Shown one piece after another: positions 3,495 through 50,600 of a stretch of DNA of 64,000 bases. Source of the DNA: Tridacna crocea (lineage: Eukaryota; Mollusca; Bivalvia; Cardiida; Cardiidae). The stretch spans positions 3,541,501 through 3,605,500 of the forward strand of contig OX031065.1 in the NCBI GenBank assembly GCA_943736015.1, written 5' to 3'. Each line of letters starts with the position of its first letter. Position 1 is the stretch's first letter. Both the position numbers and the translations under genes were made by a program. Under the pieces are notes generated by a model that saw only the letters and a program-made list of their open reading frames with translations, made no database searches and had not been told where the DNA came from.

Positions 3495-5642
3495 TTAATA
3501 CCGTGTGTGTGACCCGTGAAAATCAATGACAGTTTGGTAGCGCCTTCTCATACTCCCTATTAGGTTTCTGAGCGTTCTAACGGGTATGGAGGCCCATTCT
3601 TGGACAAACATGGCTCCAGGCTCCTGGATGGTTCTGGGTTGCACCTGACGAGCTGAAATTCGAACCTGCAGCTCATTCCACATGTGTTCTATTGGATTTA
3701 AGTCAGGTGAGCGAACTGGCCAGTTCATGCACTCAATAGTCTCCCTCTCTAGGTAGTCCTGGACCACCCTGGCCCTATGGGGGCGAGCTTAAATATCGTC
3801 CATTAGAATGAACTGATCGCCGAATGCTCCAGCATACAACCTTACCTGGTGTCTAAGATGTCGTCTGTGTATCGCTGACCTGTCAATGTGCCTCTATTTA
3901 GCACAACCAGGTTGGTTCGTCCATCCCAGCTGATGCCTCCCCACACCATAACTTACCCACCTGCGTAGCGGTCATGCTCAGCTATATTTGCAGCAAGAAA
4001 CCATTCACCTCGTCTTCTCCAGACTCTAGCATGCCTATCTGTGAGTCTAGGCAGAATCTGGACTCATCAGTGAACAGAATGTGTCTCCAGTGTTGCATGG
4101 TTCACCGTGCATGCTTCCTGGTCCATTCCAAACGGGCCAGTCGATGTCGTCGCGTCAAGGCGATATGTATGCAAGGTCTTCTCGACCGCAAATTACTTTC
4201 ATGCAGCCTTCTACGTACCGTCTGCGTGGAAACACGGACCCCCGCAGCATTAGCAAGGTCATTCCGAAGAGAAGTTGCCGTTGAAAACCTTGCACGACGT
4301 GCCTGAACGACCAAAAACCAATCATGAACTGGTGTTGTGACCCTTTGCCGACCTCCAGCATGCCTCCTGGCGGGTTAGTACTGATAACTGTCCCCAAAGG
4401 CGATGTTACTTTTCGACTGGTCGTCTCTGGGTACAGAGACAATCCGGACAAAATCAGTTGAAAGTTCCGCACAGATTTTGTGCGCAAGTTTGAACTCTCA
4501 GTATAATTTCCTAAATAGAGCACAAAACTAGGATTTAAACGTACCTGTGGCTTGCGTATTCAATATTCTTTCATTTGAAATACAAATATTTTCAATTCAA
4601 ACGCTGCTCGTGAGACCGTGCATTTCATCAGTGACCCGAGCTGTTTACGTTCCCGAAAACATTCAAAATGGCCGCCACGCACGATAAATTTCGTCCGTGA
4701 TTTTTCCGAGATAAACATGTTGTAAACGACTTCTACAAGCTTTTTATGTAATGTATGGTTTAACAATTTGTTTTTGGTCATGATTAGTACTAAAATTTAA
4801 TTGCATCTCACTGCAATACAGATAAAACCGACGAAACCGAAAGTAGGTATAGCGCTCTATATTTGGTGTCGCACCACTGCGAGATTGCTTCCGGGTCGTA
4901 GTAGTCAAAAGTAGTCCTATGTGAAATTTTGCAGTAGCACTTTTGTTGCACTGTTACACGGAGCCGAGATGGCTTGGAGTTATATGATTTAGATTTGCTT
5001 GAAATTTGGGCAATGGGGGACCACTTAGATGTGTTTTTATTGTGCACTGACAGGACTACTTTGTATTAGTGGAGGAACAAAACCTTGGGGTCATGGCGGT
5101 GAATAGGTGTTCCTGAGAAGATAAAATTTAGGGTGCCTAAGTTGGTTGGAAATTAGCGAAAAACGCAATCGGTTGACATGTTGTTTTTTTTTTTGCATTT
5201 TTTTGCAGGCCTATGGTGGTACTTTTCAGAGTAAGGAACGGACAAGCCATGATTTTGCCGTCAAGCAATATGCAAAGCTTCAAATATGGTCAATTTTGCT
5301 CTATATTCAATTAGGGAAAAAACCACACGTGTGACACCATTTGCTACCGGAAAATTTACGATGGACTTGAGACGGTACGGTGTAGAGTAAATATCCAAAT
5401 ATGAAAAAGATCACCGGGGCGTCTCATTATTGAGACTACCTGGCGGGTGTACCATGTAACCGGTATCTCCGCCAGGCTCTGGTGATGACGGTGTGGTGTA
5501 CACCAAGCGCCGCGCCAACCTGGCGGTGTGTGGCCCTCTGCTGCACCATCCCTACAGCCCTCCATAACTCTGCTTCTCCCAAATGCCGCCAAATGTTAGC
5601 ATTCGCCACATCGAAGTGACAGATGTAAGAAATGTAAGTCAC
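3495..5642 (-). pseudogene. Tc1-like transposase remnant
   Basis: From 5642 downward: an N-terminal helix-turn-helix segment (GAALGVHHTVITRAWRRYRL, 5642-5440), then after the insertion a second DNA-binding part (GVRVSTQTVRRRLHES, 4314-4102). The first catalytic Asp lies in FTDESRF (about 4060) and VVLNRGTLTGQRY at about 3900. The C-terminal DDE part has WPVRSPDLNPIEHMW (3767-3690). Frameshifts, stops and the nested insertion make it non-functional. Transposases of this family cut and paste their element at TA sites. Confidence 0.9.
4376..5438. mobile_element. 1063-bp DNA transposon nested in the Tc1 element
   Basis: Flanked by an exact 10-bp direct repeat CCTGGCGGGT (4366-4375 and 5439-5448) that occurs once in the uninterrupted transposase sequence. 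Ends are inverted: TAGTACTGATAACT on the left, ACTA reading inward as TAGTCTCAATAATG on the right. The long target duplication suggests a Mutator-like element, but I see no transposase in it. Confidence 0.8.
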
Positions 5643-5931
5643 CGAATGACGGTAAGCCGGTAATATCGGCGTATAACAAAAAACATGTGATTGTTTACAC
5701 CCTCAAAACATGAAAATACAGGGGTGCATGCTTTCTGTGCCACCTGGACGAGTTGTAACGGATTAGTCAACACGGATTCATGTCGGGGGACTATCTCAAA
5801 ACATTGTTGAATCATAATTTTCAAAAATTGGAAAGAAATCTGTTTTATACTTGTGATAATATAAAAAATAACTTATTGTGCTTAGCAAAAGTTGAGTAGT
5901 ATACATTATAGTAACTATGGTCTTCGATTGT

Positions 5932-11027: not shown

Positions 11028-12832
11028 TTTGTGGCTTTGGTTCCACCGGGACAAGGCTAGAGCTCAGACCTTTGCAGCCTTGATTCCACTGGGACTAGGA
11101 TAGACCTCAGACCTTAGTGGCCTTGGTTCCACCGGGACTAGGGTAGACCTCAGACTTTGCAGCCTTGGTTCTGCAGGGATCAGAGCTCAGACTTGGCAGC
11201 CTTGGTTCCACTGGGACTAGGCTAGATGTCAGACTTTGCAGCCTTGGTTCAACAGGGACTAGGCTAGAGGCCAGACTTTGCAACCTTGTTTCAACTGGGA
11301 CTGGGCTAGAGCCCAGATGTTGCGACCTTGGTTCCACCGAGACTAGGCTAGAGTCCAGACCCTGCAGCCTTGGCTCGACCAGGACTGCGGTCTGGGTTCG
11401 ACTGGTACTAGGCTGGAACCCAGACTCTGCGACCTTGGTTCGACCTGGACTAGGCTGGCGGACAGACATTGTGACCTTGGTACCACTGGGACTAGGATAG
11501 AACTCAGTCTTTGTTGCCTTGGTTCTTGCCAGACTAAGCTAGAGCCCAGACTTTGTGGCCTTGGTTCGACCGGGCTTGGCTAAAACCTAGACTCTGCAGC
11601 CTTGGTTCGACTGGGACAAGGCCTGGGGCCCAGACTCTGCGGCCTTGGTTATACCAGAACTAGGCTAGAGGTCAGAATTTGTAGCATTGGTTCCACAAGG
11701 ACTAGGCTAGAGGTCAGACGGCTGTTTTGGTTCCATCAGGACTAGGCTAGAGCCCAGACTTGTGGCCTTGGTTCCACCAGGACTAGACTAGAGCCTAGAT
11801 TTTGCTGCCTTGGTTCCATCAGGACTTGGTTAGAGCTCAGACTTTGTGGCCTTGGTTCCACCAGGATGGACGTCACGAAAGTAGAGTCCAAACTTGTACC
11901 TTGGTTCCATCAGGAATAGGCTAGATTTAAGAATATGTGGCCTTGGTTCCATCTGGACTAGGCTAGAGGACAGACTTTGTGGCCTTGGTTCCACCTGGAG
12001 TAATATAGAGGACAGACTTTGTGGCCTTGGTTCCACCAGGATGAACGTCACGAAGGTAGAGTTCAAACTTGTACCTTGGTTCCATCAGGAATAGGCTAGA
12101 GTTAAGAATATGTGGCCTTGGTTCCATCTGGACTAGGCTAGAGGTAAGACTTTGCGGCCTTGGTTCCACCTAGACTAGAGGTCAGACTTTGTGGCCTTGG
12201 TTCCACCAGGAGTAGTATAGAGGACAGACTTTGTGGCCTTGGTTTCATCAGGACTAGAAGTCAGACTCTGTGGGCCTTGGTTCCACCAGGACTAGACAAG
12301 AGGGCAGATTTTGTGGCCTTGGTTTCATCAGGACCAGGATAGAGATAAGAAATAGTGGCCTTAGTTCCACCAAGACTAGGCTACATGTCAGACTTTGTGG
12401 CCTTGGTTCCACCAGGACTAGGCTGGAGCTCAGACCTTTAGGCATTAGTTCCACCAGGACTAGGCCAGATCTAAGACTTTGAGACCATGGTTCCACTAGG
12501 ACTAGGATATAGCTCAGATTTTGTATCCTTGGTTTCATCAGGACCAGGAAAGAGCCAAAAGTTGGTAGCCTTAGTTCCACCAAAGCTAGGCTACATGTCA
12601 GACTTTGTGGCCTTGGCTCCACCAGGACTAAGCTAGAGCTCAGACCTTAAGGCATTAGTTCCACCAGGACTAGGCCAGATCCAAGACTTTGAGACCATGG
12701 TTCCACCAGGACTAGGTTATAGCCCAGACTTTGCGGCCTTGGTTTCATCAGGACTAAGCTCAAGCCCAGACTTTGCGGCCTTAGTTCCACCAGGACTAAG
12801 CTATAGCTCAGACTTGCCCAGTGGGGCACCCT
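11028..12832. repeat. 42-bp minisatellite, about 42 units
   Basis: The unit opens CCTTGGTTCCACCAGGACTA, then GGCTAGAG, a variable 2-3 bp and CAGACTTTGTGG. Because the period is close to a multiple of three, long open frames of the VEPRPQSL type appear on both strands; I do not take these for genes. A higher-order duplication is seen where GGATG(G/A)ACGTCACGAA units recur at about 11863 and 12043. Confidence 0.92.
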
Positions 12833-14904: not shown

Positions 14905-17590
14905 TTTTCGGTCACTTTTGTCTAGAGTGTTTTAGATAGGTGGACAGTGTAGAGAAGGTTGATTTTGGCTAAAGTGTTTTAGATACGTAGACAGTGAACA
15001 GTAAGTTGCTTTTGTCTAAGGTGTTTATAGATGGGTGGACAGTGTAGGGCAGGTTGCATTCGTCTAAACTGTTTTAGATAGGTGGATAGTGTAGAGAAGG
15101 TTGATTTTGGCTAAAGTGTTTTAGATAGGTAGACAGTAAACAGTAAGTTACTTTTGTCTAAGGTGTTTATAGATGGGTGGACAGTGTAGAGCAGGTTGCT
15201 TTCGTCTAAACTGTTTTAGATAGGTGGACAGTGTAGAGCAGATTGATTTTGGCTAAAGTGTTTCAGATAGGTAGACAGTGAACAGTAGGTTGCTTTTGTC
15301 TAAAATGTTTATAGATAGGTGGACAGTGTAGAGCAGGTTGCATTCGTCTAAACTGTTTTAGATAGGTGGACAGTGTAGAGCAGGTTGATTTTGGCTAATG
15401 AGTTTTAGATAGGTAGACAGTGAACAGTAGGATGCTTTTGTTTAAGGTGTTTATAGATGGGTGGACAGTGTAGAGCAGGTTGCTTTTTGGCTAAAGTGTT
15501 TTAGATAGGTGGACAATGTAGAGCAAGTTGATTTTTGTCTATAGCGTTTTGGATGGGTGGACAGTGTAGAGCAGATTTCCTTTTGGCTAAATTGTTTTAG
15601 ATAGGTGGAATGTATAGAGCAGGTTGTTTTTTGTCTACAGTGTTTTGGATGGGTGGACAGTGTAGAGCACGTTTCCTTTTGGCTAAAGTGTTTAAGATAG
15701 GTGGACATTTCTGGCTACAGTGTTTTAGATAGGTGAACAGTGAAGAGCAAGCTGCTTTTGTCGACAGTGTTTATAGATAGGTGGACAGTGTAGAGCAGGT
15801 TGATTTTTGTCCACAGTGTTTTAGATAGGAGGACAGTGTAGAGCAGGTCGCTTTTGGCTAAAGTGTTTTAGATAAGTGGACAATGTAGAGCATATTGATT
15901 TTTGTGTACATTGCTTTAGACAGGAGGAGAGTGTAGAGCAAGTTGCTTTTGTCTAAAGTCTTTTAAATAGGTATACAGTGTACAGATTGAGTTTTGACTA
16001 AAGTGTTTTAGATAATTGGACAGTGTAGAGGAGGTTGATTTTTGTCCACAGTGTTTTAGATAGTTGGACAGTGTTGAGCAGGTTGAGCAGGTCGCTTTTG
16101 GCTAAAGTGTGTCAGATATGTGGACAGTGTAGAGCAGGTCGCTTTTGGCTAAAGTGTATTAGATAGGTGGACAATGTAGAGCAGGTCGCTTTTGTCTAAA
16201 GTGTTTTAGATAAGTGGACAGTGTAGAGCAAGTTGCTTTTGTCTAAAGTATTTATGGATAGATGGACAGTGTAGAGCAGGTCGCTTTTGTCTACAGTGGC
16301 TTAGATAGGTGGATAGTGTGGAGCAAGTTGCTTTTGTCTAAAGTGTATATAGAGAGGTGGACAGTGTAGAGCAGGTCGCTTTTGTCTGAAGTGTTTATAG
16401 ATAGATGGACAGTGTAGAGCAGGTCGCTTTTGTCTGAAGTATTTATAGATAGATGGACAGTGTAGAGCAGGTTGCATTGTCTACAGAGTTTAAGATAGGT
16501 GGACAGTGTATAGCAAGTCGCTTTTGGCTAAAGTGTTTTAGATAGGTGGACAGTGAAGAGCAGGTCACTTTTGGCTAAAGTGTTTTAGATAGGTGGACAG
16601 TGTAAAGGGAATTGCTTTTGGCTAAAGTGTTTTAGATAGGTGGACAGTTTAGAGCAGGTTGATTTTGGCTAAATCGTTTATAGATAGGTGAACAGCGTAC
16701 AGCAGGTTGCTTTTGTCTTATCTAGAATGTTTTAAATAGGTGAACAGTGTACTGCAGGTTGTTTTTGTCTTCAGTGTTTCAGATAGGTGGATAGGGTAGA
16801 TTGAAGAACAAACAGCATGTTTTATGCAGTCTGATCTTAATCTGCACTGACCACAAGGCAAATCTAGTGGCATGTTTATAGCTAATTTTGTCTAAAGTAT
16901 TTTAGACATGTGTACAATGTAGACCAGGTTGTTTTTGTCTAAAGTGCTTAAGAAAGGTGGAAAGGGTAGAGCAGGTTAGTTTTTGTCTAAAGTGTTCTAT
17001 ATAGGTGAACAGTGTAGAGCAGGTTGTTTTTTGTCTAATGTATTTTAGATAGGTGGACAGTGTAGAGCAGGTTGTTTTTGTCTAGATGTTTTAGATAGCA
17101 ATACAGTGTAGAGGAAGTTGTTTTTGTCTGATGTGTTTTAGATGGCTGGACAATGTAGAGCAGGCTGCTTTTGTCTAAAGTGTTTTAGAGAGGTGGACAG
17201 TATAAAGTAGGTTGCTTTTGTCTAAAGTTTTTCAGTTAATAGAACAGTGTAGAGCAGGCTGCTTTTGCCTAAAGTGTTTTGGAGAGGTAGACAGTATAAA
17301 GTAGGTTGCTTTTGTCTGAAGTGTTTCAGTTAGTATAACAGTGTAGAGCAGGTTGATTTTGTCTAAAGCATTGCAGATAGGTGGACAGTGTAGATCACTG
17401 CTTTAGTCTAAGGTGGATAGTGTAGAACACTGCTTTAGTCTAAGGTGGATAGTGTAGAGCAAGTTGCTTTGCCTAAAGCGTACGATGGGTGGACAATTTG
17501 GAGCAGGCTGCCGAACATGTTTTAGATAGGTGGCCAGTGTAAGGCAGGCTGCTTTTGTCTGAAGTGTTCAGATAGGTGGATGGGGTATAT
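14905..17590. repeat. 46-47 bp satellite array, about 57 units
   Basis: The unit opens TTTTAGATAGGTGGACAGTG, then TAGAGCAGGTTGCTTTTG and (G/T)CTAAAGTG. Two M5-like segments sit at 16799-16885 and 17585-17695. Confidence 0.93.
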
Positions 17591-22156: not shown

Positions 22157-22386
22157 TTAACTCTTTACCAAATGACAAATTTCATAGACTGGTCCAAATT
22201 GAAAGCATTTGCAGAAAACAAAATAAATGCGACTGAAAAATTGAAATTTGGTTTGGGAAGGTTCAAAAACATTGTGGGAAAAGGAGAACATGCTGGTTAC
22301 TAGCATTTTCTTCTTTTCCAACAATGTTTTTAACAAGCTTCTTTCTCACGGTCGTTAAAAGTCAGGATTGTGTGGGAAAGAGTTAA
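22157..22386 (-). mobile_element. MITE M1
   Basis: TTAA on both sides; full length. Confidence 0.92.
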
Positions 22387-22427: not shown

Positions 22428-22595
22428 TTCCTACAGAATCCTGAGTTTTAATGACCCTGACCAGAATAGCTTCTGAAAATATTTTGAAAAAGGAGAAAAT
22501 ACTGCTGACTATCTTTTTCTCCTTTTCCCAAAATGTTTTCAAAAGCCTTCTTCCTACAAGTTGTTAAAGCTTGGGATAGCATGGTACAAGAGTAA
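22428..22595 (+). mobile_element. MITE M1, degenerate
   Basis: AATCCTGAGTTTTAATGACC and a mismatched palindrome. Directly precedes the LRRCC1 3' array. Confidence 0.6.
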
Positions 22596-22604
22596 CTTTA
22601 TCAC

Positions 22605-23620
22605 CAAGGAAATAGTCTGTTTGAAAGTCAATCAGAGCATTTGCCAACTTTCTTACTTTGTCTCCATGGAAATACAAGTTCTATATCACTTCCACTCTGA
22701 TGTTGAAAAAAGTCTGTCTGAGGATCACTCATGGCTTTCTGTCTCTAGCCCATGTCAACCTTATAGCTTTGTTTCCATGGAAACTAAAGTTCTATCACAC
22801 AATCTATCCTAAAATTTGTACAACTCTGTAGGTCACTCACAGCCTTATACGACCCTTTCACTTTGTCTCTATGGAAATCAACTGTACATAACTTCCACTT
22901 CATTGTAAATACAAGTCTGAAGGTAACTCAGCCTGTATCAACCTCTTTACTTTGTCTCCATGGAAACTTAAATCTTAGATCAAATCCACTCTAATGTTAG
23001 CTAATGTCTGTCTGAAGGTCATCTTTGGCTTTTTGTTGCCACAGAAACCAAAGTTTTACATCACTCCCAATCTCATAAGTGTGTCTGAAAGTCTCTCGTG
23101 AACTATGTCAATCTTCTATGTTTCCATGGAAACCAAAGTTCTACATCACTTCATTTTAATGTTAGCACAGGTCTGTCTGAAGGTCAATCAGAACCTTTGT
23201 GAACCTTGAAACTGAAAGTTCTACAGCACTTCTACTCTAATGTTAGTACAGATCTCTTTGAAGGTCACCCATGGCCTTCTGTCTCCAGGGAAACCAAAGT
23301 TCAAAAGCATTTCTACTCCAATGTTTGTACAAGTCACTCATAGCTTGTGTCAAACTTGTCTCCATGGAAACCACAGTCCCAAATGGCTTCCATTCTAGTG
23401 TTCATTTGAGTCTGTCTGAAGGTCACTCATGGCCTTTTGTTTCCATGGAAACCAAAGTTCTACATCACTTCAACTCTGATGTTATTTAAGTCTGCCTTAA
23501 GGTCACTCACTGCCATTTGTCTCCATGGCAACAAAAGTTCTTCATTGCTTTCACTCTAATGTTAGTACAAGTCTGTTTGAAGGTCACTCATGGCCTGTGT
23601 CAACCTTTTTACTTTGTCTT
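22605..23620. repeat. Tandem array overlapping the end of the LRRCC1 CDS
   Basis: About a dozen degenerate units of 70-110 bp. The shared plus-strand core is GTCTGTCTGAAGGTCACTCA, then a TGGCC… stretch, TTTGTCTCCATGGAAAC, a CAAAGTTCTACATCACTTC block and CTAATGTTAGTACAA. The last unit (23562-23620) is coding DNA on the minus strand and includes the stop codon. It will form part of the 3' UTR if the transcript extends that far. Confidence 0.85.
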
Positions 23621-23687
23621 CCATAGCTTTCTTGGCTGCTTGGTTCTCTTTCAATAGTTCTCTCATTTCCTCCTCAACTTCAAAGAT
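23562..23687 (-). CDS. LRRCC1: LRRCC1 terminal exon with stop codon
   Basis: 126 bp, 41 codons plus TAA at 23564-23562, with a TTTTTTACAG acceptor. It reads IFEVEEEMRELLKENQ and ends QAMSDLQTDLY. The recalled human protein stops at nearly the same position (…LNEIQQDM). The final 45 bp or so of coding sequence are also the first unit of a degenerate tandem array that runs through the 3' flank. Confidence 0.93.
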   Translation of the reverse strand: MFEVEEEMRELLKENQAAKKAMEDKVKRLTQAMSDLQTDLY

Positions 23688-26600
23688 CTGTAAAAAAAGC
23701 AAAACCCATGAATGCCAATAAACCTCTTTATAATTACCAAAAGACAAAAATGTCACAAAATCATAGCAACCATTGTTTTCTTCTTTTCCTACAAAGTTTT
23801 TAAAAGCTTTCGAATTCTAAGTCATTAAAACACAATTATTTTCCAAAGCCTTCTAATTCTGGGTAAGTTAAACAGGGAATAGTTTTATAAAGGTTTAAAC
23901 TTTGAGAAAAGTTTAAGTCTTTACCACAAAACCCGGAATTTTAACAACCCTATGGAAATGGCCTTTTGAAAACCTTGTAGGAAAAGGAGAAAATGCTGGT
24001 TACTAGCATTTTTCTCTTTTTCAAACAAGGTTTTCTGCACTTCCCAATACTGTAACCCTCATAACTGCTACATCTTATCTTGCTTTCAATTTGGAAAAGT
24101 CTAAAATTTTGTTGTTTGGTAAAGAGTTAAAGTTGCCACTGTAGCCAATAAAGACCAGAATCACTTTGTTCAATTTGGACTAGTCTTAAATATTGTCGTT
24201 TTGAGGAAGCGTTATGACAGATTTCCTGAAATTGTGAAAATAACAAATTCCCTGGACTGGTCTTCTAGGGTATCAGGGGAACCTTACACTAACTGCTTTA
24301 TCAGGGAAACCTTACACTTAACTGCTTTATCACCGGAACCTTACACTAACAGCTATATCAGGGGAACCTTACATTAACAGCTTTGATCCTTAATCACAAA
24401 CAGTGAAAGCAACATCTTCCACAGCCCAGGACAGATTATGAAAGTTACCACCCCAAAAATAACATCATCGGAAACTAATCCCAAAACACAGCCCTCTCAG
24501 CAAAATGCTCACAATGTATTTTGACAGTTTGTTTCATGTGTTGGGAGTTATGAAGAATGTTGAAATAAATATTGGTCATCTATGTTTTAAATAATTATTC
24601 CAAGCAAGTTCAACAACTCTCTCCTTTTTCAAAGTCTCTTCTATTTACATTTTGGAGATGATGAATAGCAAATGTACCTTGCTATTTGATTGGTTCTTTC
24701 AGAACAGACAGCAATAAATGATTACGAGTTCTTTGGGGTAACAAATTCTGATTCAATCTGCAAAGGTTGCATTGAGTAACATAATAATTATCACCCTTGC
24801 CTAGCAAAGATGTGAAAACAACCTAGCAAATTGCAGTTTCAATGTACTATTTCAGTCTTTAGTAGATGGCTAAATTTAGACCAGCCCAAACTGGAAGTAT
24901 CAGTAAATGTTTAATGTCACTCCAAAGATAGAGGTTATCTTTGATAAGGTAGAAAATATTGTGGAAAAAGGAGAAAATGCTGGTTACCAGCATTTTCTCC
25001 TTTTCCCACAATGTTTTCAAAAGACTTCTCTCTCAGGCTTGTTAAAACTTGTGACTGTGTAACTAAGGGTAGAGACAAAAACCACAAACCCTAAGGTTGG
25101 CTTTTTGTACTTCCTCGTCTTTCTCTTGCTCTAGTTGAGCCATCTGAACCTGATATACACTGATCTTGTCCTCAAGCTGTTTTCTAAATGCATCATCAGC
25201 TGATTTCAGCCTCTCAATTGCTAAACTGAAAGATGAAATTAAAACATAGTGCATGAATTGCATTATAATTATTATTATTATCTAATTTGCCTGACTGACT
25301 ATTATACTTGTTTTGAATATTGCATATCAGGGTTTTATGAATGAGTCTTTGGGCAAGACATCTAAATGCAGTCTTTTTCAGAAACAGAGTGATATTCAAT
25401 GAAAATTCTTCTTTTAACTCTTTACCAGACGACAAAATTTTAGATTTATCCAAAAAGTCAAAAAAGGGGGATAACCGTTTCAAAGAAATTTTGATATTTA
25501 CCATCCTTCACTGTATGGCATTTCATAGCCCTGTTTCAGGGCCAATCAAAAACAAGGACTAGCATGAACTAAGGCTACTTTCAGTTTGTCATCTGCAAAT
25601 ATGGCATTTTTTCCTTTAGAAAATTCTAGAATTTTATTCTTTAGTAAACAGTTGAACGAATGTTAAAGTTTTTAGACAGAATATCTCATAAACATCAAAC
25701 AGTGTAGATCTTGATCTACTCTGCAAGCAAAAAGCTGTAAAATGGCTCAATTCTTTACCACACAATGACACCATTTAATGACCCTGAGAAAGATGCCTAA
25801 TGGAAACATTGTGGGAAAAGGAAAAAATGCTGTTAACCAGCATTTTCTCCTTTTCCCACAAAGTTTTCTATCCTATCGAAGAAATATTGCATCATTTGAG
25901 CCACTATGAAATTGTTGTCTGCAAATGCTTTCATTTTGGACAGGACTAAAATTTTGTACAGGGTTACACATGCTGACGACTCAATCCAAGAATACAGAAG
26001 TTCTTACTTAGCTGCTGCTAATGCCTTATCTCTTTCTTGGGTCAACTTGGTCTCTTTTTTTTCCCATGATTCCTTCATCTCTCTGACTTGTTGCTCCAAC
26101 TGACCAATCAGCTGTGACTTCTCTTTCCATTTATTATTCAGTACACTGAAAAAAGAAATATTATGTTGAAGAAGTCATCTGCATAAATACATGTACAATT
26201 TTACCAGCATTTTCTCCTTTTCTCATAACTGTTAACTCATTACCACACAATATCAAATTTTTAATGACCCTGAGGGAGAAAGTGTTTGAAAACAGCATGG
26301 GAAAAGGAGAAAATGCTGGAAATCAGTACTTTATCTTTTACCAACCCTCTGAATGACATATTTCATCCTAAACAACATATAATTTTGTCAGCAAAATACT
26401 TTTGATTTGGATGGGTGTAAAATTTTGTCATCCGGTAAAGAGTTAGAGGATGGTTTGACCGTATACAAGCATTGTATATAGCATCAGACAGTGCACCAGA
26501 TGAACAGAAAACGGTAGAAAAACATTACAAACCATGATATTTTTCTGATTTTATTAAGTTCCTTTCAATTCGTTGTTTTCCCCAGAAGGTAAAACTGTAG

Positions 26601-47600: not shown

Positions 47601-50600
47601 AATGTTTTCTACAGACTTCTTTCTCAGGGTCATCAAAAGTAGGGATTGTATGGTAAGAGTTAAAACTGACGGACAGACAGGAACACAAAGAACCATTTTG
47701 GAAAAAATTATATCCCTCTTTTTTCTTCCCGCCCCCCCTCCCTTTAACCTATTACCACTCAATCCCTACTTTTGACGCCCCTGAGAAAGAAGCCTTTTGA
47801 AAACACTGTGGGAAAAGGAGAAAATGCTGGTAACCAGCATTTTCTCCTTTTCCCACAGTGTTTTCTACCCTTCCCAGAACAAATTTCAATTTTTCAGTAG
47901 CCTTTATTTTGTCGTCTGCAAATGCTTTCAATTTGGACCAATCTAAAATTTTCTTGTGTGGTAAAGAGTTAAATAGGACAAAAAGAAGGGGGAGAGGGGG
48001 AAAGCAGACCAAAAGAGACTGTTTTCATGCATTCATGCCACCCTGAAATTGTGGCTATTTTGCGTCTTATTTCTAACCTGATAATGTCTGTTAGCTTTCT
48101 GTGACACTCTGTCGGTCTAAAGTCTAAATGACGGTAAAAACACTGACCTGATTATCTTGACAATTAGCTCTCTCCTCTGCCAGTTGGTCCTCAAGGCTTT
48201 GTTGGATTTTCAAGTTTTCTTGTCGACATTTCTTGATTTCATTATCTCTCTCTTCTAAACCCTGGAAAACAAATCAAGAAAATTATAACAAATAGATAGT
48301 ATCCACCATTGACACCACCTGAATTAATCAACTCACTGCTTTTAATGACTTTTTTCTTACTAGTGATCCATGCTTAAACTTGCAAAACTGGCTCTGAATT
48401 TTTAAAAACAAGAGGGCCATGATGGCCCTGTATCGCTCCACTGGCTAATTCGTAAAAACACTACAAGCCAAACATTACATTATTTGGCCAACTGGTTTCA
48501 AACTTGAGGGCATATAATTTTTTTCCAGTTGTGACCCCTGAGCAAATCCAATTTTGACCACAAAGCTATAATTACTTGAATCCTGGTGGAAGTCTACAAG
48601 ATAAAGCCCCATACCAAAAATACAGGTTTACAATGTGTGGTTATAAACAAGAAGATTTTCAAAGTTTTCTCAATAAAAAGCCCTGTAAAACATAAAACCC
48701 ATGAGACAGGGCTAAATTTAGTGGTCCTAGTCTTTATTATGGTTAGTAACAAGATGACTTAGAAAGTTTTCACCACAAAAGCCCATGTAAAACTTGTGAC
48801 CCCTGGTGTGGGGACAAACTTGACCCTAAGGCTATAATTTGGGCCCTCCTGGTAGAGGCCTACTAGATAAAGCTATATGCAAAATTTGGTAGCCCTAGGC
48901 CTTATGGCTAGGTACAAGTAGATTTTTAAAAAATTCCCAATATGAGCCCATGTAAAACTTGTGACCCCCAGGACAGGACCAAATTTGACCCCAGGGCTAC
49001 AATTTGGGCACCTTTGGTAGACAACCACTTGATAAAGCTAGATGCAAAATTGAGTAGCCCTAGGCCTTATGGCTTGGTACGAACAGATTTTTATAGTTTT
49101 CACTATATAAGCCCATATAAAACTTGTGACCCCCGGGGCCAGGGCAAAATTTGACCTCTGGGCTATCATTTGGGCACTCTGGGTAGAGGTCTATTAGATA
49201 AAGCTACATGCCAAATTTGGTAGCCTTAGACTCTATGACTAGGTACCAGAAGGATTTTAAAGTTTTCCCTATATAAGCCCATATAAAACTTGTGACCCCC
49301 GGGGCGGGGCCAATTTTGACCCCAGGGCTATTATTTGAAGGAACTTGGTAGAGGTCCACTAGATAAAGCTACATGCCATATTTGGTAGCTCTAGGCCTTA
49401 TGGTTTCAGAGAAGAAGATTTTTAAAAATTTTCAATATTTTTCAGTTTTGTTGCCATGGCAACCAGAGTTTTTGAAGGAATAAAATTCTTTCAAGGAATT
49501 CTGAAGAGGACCATGGCAGGATCATTTCTGTGAAGTTTCATCAAAATTGGATGGGTAGTTTCAGAGAAGATGTTTGAAATAAAAGTTAACGCACGCACGG
49601 ACGCACGCACAGACGGACGCACGCACGACGGACACCGGGCCATGACATAAGCACGCTGGCCTTCGGCCAGTGGAGCTAAAAAACACTTTGACGTCTAAAA
49701 TTTTGTCCTTAGGTAAAGAGTTTTGAAACCCCCTGCTTTAAACCTTTTCCAAGCAAACCCCTGGTTTTTATGACCCTTAGGTAGAGGCCTTTAGAAAACA
49801 TTGTGGGAAAACATTGCTGGTTACCAGCATTTTCTCCTTTTCCCATGTTTTTCTACCCTGTTGGAAACAAGTTTAAATTTTTAAGTTTTGTTGATTCTGT
49901 CATCTGCAAGTGCTTTCAAACTGAACCAGTCTAAAATTTCATTGTTTGGTAAAGAGTTAAAATTACCATCGTTTTTTAATTCTTAACCCTTTACCACACA
50001 ATGCCGACTTTAAACAACCTTGGGTAAGAAGCCTTTTGAAAACATTGTGGCAATAGGAGAAAATGCTGGTAACCAGCATTTTCTCTTTTTCCCACCTGCT
50101 AGAAATAAATTTTGATCTTTCATTTACATTTACTTTGTCCTCTGCAAGTGCTTCCAATTTGGACCAGTCTAAACTTTTGTTGTTTGGTAAAGGGTTAAAA
50201 CACATGATTGATTGCTACAGAAGCCCACTTACTTCCTTCAGTTTTTTTATAGTTTCTGTCTGATCCTCCAGCATTTTGGTTTTGATTTTCAAGCCATCTG
50301 TCTCTCTCTGTCAAAAAAAATGTAAATTTTAGCATGCATCGATAATTTACAACTTGACCAAGTTTGAAGTAAATATCTTCAGTAATAGTACAGATATAAT
50401 AAAATGTCAGAGTTGTTGCATGCTAACACAGACAACAATGACACAAAGGCGACAGGGCTGTGACTATACTCGACAACAGCGGCGCCTTTCAGTTTAGAAC
50501 AACATCCTATATAAAGCATTTTCAGAATTATCTTGACACCAGGATAATTTATAGAACCTGGGTACAAAGTAAATCTAAGACCAGATTCTACTTTCTGTGT

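Follow-up and report, generated by a model that had tools for sequence, protein, structure and literature searches.

A minisatellite at the 3' end of a Tridacna crocea gene, probably founded by the gene's own coding end

The last coding exon of a minus-strand gene in Tridacna crocea ends inside the first unit of a tandem array that continues into the 3' flank, and in all likelihood this local minisatellite began as a tandem duplication of the 3' end of that gene. The window analysed is a stretch of 64,000 nucleotides (contig OX031065.1, positions 3,541,501 to 3,605,500), and its coordinates are used below. Minisatellites grow by unequal exchange or slippage and, to our knowledge, their founder is rarely identifiable. 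Here, selection seems to have frozen the founder, so that the decay of each unit is measurable against a known ancestor, and tandem copies of the gene provide a second time point. The coding end of a gene would also have supplied the raw material for ∼1 kb of flanking repeat, with no visible damage to the protein. Growth of this kind is ordinary for a minisatellite; a founder that is still so legible is not.

The array and the last exon

A preliminary description, made from the sequence alone, placed a degenerate array of a dozen units at 22605-23620. The array is real and slightly larger, extending on the minus strand from 22593 to 23624, with 12 units and a partial unit of 15 nt. That coding DNA with its stop codon forms part of a unit also holds; the estimated size of this overlap, ∼45 nt, does not, and becomes 63 nt including TAA (23562-23624). 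The features are as follows.

23562..23687, minus strand: terminal coding exon IFEVEEEMRELLKENQAAKKAMEDKVKRLTQAMSDLQTDLY, with the stop TAA at 23562-23564, preceded by an TTTTTTTACAG acceptor.
23527..23624, minus strand: unit 1, 98 nt, comprising the last 63 coding bases and 35 post-stop bases; proposed founder.
22608..23526, minus strand: units 2-12, from unit lengths and nhmmer matches, with starts (high end, gene strand) at 23526, 23446, 23365, 23288 and 23206 (units 2-6) and at 23127, 23042, 22961, 22872, 22778 and 22667 (units 7-12).
22668..22778, minus strand: unit 11, which reads as units 11 and 12 of a paralogue fused through a deletion in the window copy.
22608..22667, minus strand: unit 12, equivalent to paralogue unit 13 minus an internal piece after AAACAGACT.
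22593..22607, minus strand: partial last unit TTGGTGATAAAGTTA, from comparison with paralogue units.

On the minus strand the exon end reads GCT followed by ATGGAAGACAAAGTAAAAAGGTTGACACAGGCCATGAGTGACCTTCAAACAGACTTGTACTAA, and the first unit starts with the latter; the last 20 codons and the stop of the exon are thereby part of unit 1. Units are 60-111 nt long, with 81 nt the commonest length in the window and 97 nt the long form in the paralogue, and their head-to-tail arrangement (12 units and a partial one) is that of a minisatellite, for which units of ∼10-100 bp are typical. The DNA occupied by the array 3' of the stop codon amounts to 969 bp. Tandem Repeats Finder alone reports just 22950-23601 at the array, with a period of 81. 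Membership of the exon does not depend on its own contribution to the model: an nhmmer profile built from window units 2-12, with the exon unit excluded, recovers that unit with 64.7 bits and E=3.6e-19, as the second best of 12 array matches, and the single match listed outside the array in the 64-kb window has E=2.8. A similarity between units and exon no better than chance had been named as grounds for discarding the idea; the observed value is far beyond chance. In the window copy, AATAAA is absent from the stop codon to the array end, and ATTAAA occurs once 404 nt past the start of the stop codon and next at 1112, outside the array.

The gene may be LRRCC1 (VFL1), whose family has N-terminal leucine-rich repeats and a long C-terminal coiled coil, a plausible assignment from likeness alone. 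Several coiled-coil-like, charged exon candidates are found on the same strand from 23.6 to ∼84 kb (window coordinates); a string of them matches neither Pfam nor PDB sequences. A search for a leucine-rich-repeat exon over window positions 40-64 kb and a further 50 kb past the window, relying on a crude LRR pattern and with element-like frames filtered out in part, gave none that was convincing, and the 5' end of the gene may lie further off.

Gene copies and the age of the array

Exon and array are present together at all four copies found in the window's own genome (1.05 Gb, 31 contigs): C10:3565 kb (the window), C10:3456 kb (c3456), C10:3725 kb (c3725) and C19. Three of these loci lie on one contig within 270 kb, both extra C10 copies having the orientation of the window copy, and C19 is a 57-kb contig ending within the array, which may be an alternative haplotype. 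A protein search with the last exon returned these four loci and one chance-level match (E=6.5). Genome searches were made with three queries, namely the exon end, the array (827 bp) and a dimer of the consensus (178 nt), one of them at E up to 10; they pass over very common words and score the best candidates only. Within this scope they gave no dispersed copies, and the sequence is locus-specific, as befits a minisatellite. A 26-nt unit motif gave 0 matches in viral contigs. The restriction to four gene copies in these searches weighs against an origin of the unit from a dispersed mobile element, a piece of which would have inserted in the last exon and then multiplied. Such an origin would suit neighbouring DNA that is rich in dispersed repeats and other minisatellites, as well as unit ends that resemble inverted repeats around CATGG, but it must be considered highly improbable.

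The expansion of the array seems to predate the duplication of the locus by a wide margin. Likeness between c3456 and c3725 amounts to 96.7% over 7.8 kb; for the window copy versus c3456 it is ∼84-88% in stretches around these exons. Divergence is greater between units than between paralogous positions: window units 2-10 share 87% identity (650/747) with the c3456 units at the same positions, whereas the mean identity among units within one locus is 71-72%, which suggests that the array predates duplication of the gene. In a tree built from the window, c3456 and c3725 units (C19 and the partial units left out), clustering follows position for all but unit 6; concerted evolution since the duplication of the gene is rejected for this reason. 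Two stretches present in c3456 are missing from the window copy (units 11/12 fused, unit 13 without its middle), and in the tree window unit 11 clusters with paralogue unit 12 (0.988) and window unit 12 with paralogue unit 13 (0.956).

The 41-aa peptide of the terminal exon is identical at two other loci and 95% identical at the third. The last exons of the window and c3456 differ by three synonymous and no non-synonymous changes; the window exon has no amino-acid change relative to c3725, and two occur in C19. Exon 25111-25225 differs between the window and c3456 by eight synonymous and two non-synonymous changes; exon 26008-26145, with one synonymous and four non-synonymous changes, has no synonymous excess and shows no constraint. 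The three exons pooled give pS 0.175 and pN 0.020 for this pair. Gene conversion from the array into the coding end, which the many near-copies had suggested as a possibility, shows no sign: the exon units of the three loci form one cluster (0.913) apart from the position-wise clusters of the others, unit 6 excepted, and inspection reveals few, scattered exon differences between loci and the same peptide at three of the four.

Direction of growth

The proposal that the exon is the ancestral copy, or the unit nearest to it, and that the array grew from it is supported by the consensus of the units, the genome searches and the heptad pattern of the peptide. The peptide can be read from units that are not coding. 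In the exon frame, the consensus of window units 2-12 gives M-DKVKRLTKAMSDLQTDLY-stop, the exon itself giving MEDKVKRLTQAMSDLQTDLY-stop, and the consensus of c3456 units 2-13 gives M-DKVKRLT*AMSDLQTDLY-stop. The coding part of the exon is the unit nearest the leave-one-out consensus, with 54/55 positions in the window and 50/52 in c3456 (8 and 11 gap columns, respectively, set aside), compared with 0.72-0.92 and 0.68-0.89 for the other units. The post-stop part of the same unit is ordinary in this respect (29/35 in the window and 30/35 in c3456), which indicates that the coding part was frozen and the tail drifted. Between the c3456 exon and its units, third-position differences reach 46/168, versus 28/162 and 31/169 (codons 5-21), an excess in keeping with mostly silent change in the exon itself.

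On a home-made heptad (coiled-coil) score, the 20-aa exon stretch obtains 8.6; all of 50,000 random open sequences fall short of this value, as do all 1089 open 20-codon windows in the non-exon units of the window and c3456. At the unit border the best heptad register moves by 3, and if the register of the upstream part is imposed on the unit, 477 of 20,000 random sequences score equally well. These results bear on the opposite direction, in which a pre-existing minisatellite extended into the gene and gave it a new C-terminus. The exon unit is a regular array member, as that scenario predicts, but the consensus of the array units by themselves already encodes an in-frame coiled-coil end and a stop, which a non-coding founder would have had no reason to possess, and the exon sits at the consensus, undiverged unlike the other units. 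Extension into the gene is thus unlikely; an exon that acquired its unit when the array had only just arisen would be indistinguishable from a founding exon. An array of former coding repeats is rejected, because lengths such as 97 break the frame and a stop lies inside the unit.

A trace of the founding event by the exon may persist in the exon's GGAAGAC stretch, in GGAAGACAAAGT. According to the unit alignment, in which unit 6 is gapped throughout this stretch, one base of it is missing in 10 of the 11 window and 11 of the 12 c3456 non-exon units; the shortened stretch has the length of GGTGAC in the partial unit at the array end, in GGTGACAAAGT. This would follow from a first exchange that linked the exon stretch to a match downstream, with junctions inheriting their left side from the latter. 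The extra A could also be a later insertion that set the frame, were the gene to have acquired its end from the array. The partial last unit could be what is left of a full one, or else the short match downstream that served in the first duplication.

With the exon as founder, a ∼97-bp segment, from ATGGAAGACAAAGT in the last exon to the similar TTGGTGACAAAGTTA past the stop, would have been duplicated by unequal exchange or slippage between these two short matches. Further exchanges would have led to ∼13 units, among which a form shorter by 16 nt would have spread. The exon copy would have been held by protein-level selection, the remaining units drifting, presumably neutrally, and the locus would have been duplicated later, at least twice. 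Hairpins are a possible driver of array growth: DNA folding of units 1-3 has a stability modestly above chance (z −2.5; 3 of 200 shuffles at least as stable).

Like minisatellites in general, the array is head-to-tail, degenerate and locus-specific, with units of 80-100 bp and unit-length variants; unlike them, its unit spans a stop codon and its translated founder is still recognisable. The 3' UTR VNTR of SLC6A3 is likewise a tandem repeat at the 3' end of a gene, but it is located after the stop without the coding end, which the present array includes. Human segmental duplications contain internal tandem repeats that change gene structure (PMC2812944); these are likewise of minisatellite type and lie in exons or UTRs of genes that were duplicated, but they vary between recent paralogues, whereas the array here appears older than its paralogues. 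The words 'stop codon' do not occur in the main text of that article. Among the matches listed in literature searches, nothing on point concerned stop-spanning or exon-derived arrays. The array is real and well preserved, and this minisatellite most likely owes its founding to the coding end of the gene.

Junction palindromes and neighbouring elements

The unit junctions carry palindromes that resemble X-boxes.

22771..23532, no strand assigned: X-box-like palindromes at unit junctions, from strict and relaxed patterns; strict GTYNCCNNGGNRAC sites in the array at 22771, 22954, 23120, 23281, 23358, 23439 and 23519.

The strict pattern is our own, and seven of its eight sites in the 64-kb window fall in the 1-kb array. 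The relaxed consensus RYYNYYN(1-3)RRNRAC, given in PMC4168999, has 18 matches in the 1032-bp array versus 164 in the other 63,020 bp, both strands counted, and shuffled arrays have a mean of 2.06 and at most 10; the real array is above background. Junctions are exactly GTTTCCATGGARAC in 5 of 12 cases in the window, most others being near forms, and the unit 5/6 junction is broken in the window, c3456 and c3725. Over units 2-10, the window and c3456 differ at 9/118 junction positions versus 88/629 elsewhere (Fisher p=0.072). The palindrome GTTTCCATGGAAAC, as a literal string, was not found in a literature search.

As LRRCC1 is described as a protein of the centriole and cilium in PMC8983040, it is tempting to propose that the array, whatever its origin, was retained because its cluster of RFX/X-box-like sites has a function at a gene of ciliary type. 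The concentration of strict sites in the array and the lower divergence of the junctions speak in its favour, but the latter is not significant, repetition alone multiplies a single palindrome, fewer than half of the junctions are exact and one is broken at three loci, and the array lies 3' of the gene; moreover, LRRCC1 is unmentioned among the matches listed in a literature search on LRRCC1, RFX and X-box. Retention for such a function is very unlikely. Selection on the junction palindromes is unproven, and repetition alone can explain their number. It is also very doubtful that copying of the coding end incidentally built an RFX/X-box-like cluster behind a centriole/cilium gene that would now regulate this gene or its tandem copies.

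The eighth strict site, at 49450-49463, lies outside the array and is a perfect canonical X-box palindrome, GTTGCCATGGCAAC. Two large minisatellites, at 11037-12815 and 14915-17458, have 42- and 47-bp units and long minus-strand open frames; neither is matched by the array profile. A dispersed sequence is repeated often throughout the window (e.g. 22306-22360, 22515-22569 and 23776-23830), and one of its copies seems to adjoin the distal end of the array. Broken open frames at 3498-5700 resemble a Tc1/mariner transposase. Beyond the window, C10:3645501-3655500 contains a long open frame, 45-50 kb past the window end, that resembles a Ty3/gypsy polyprotein, and a separate open frame of 515 codons starts at C10:3647294.
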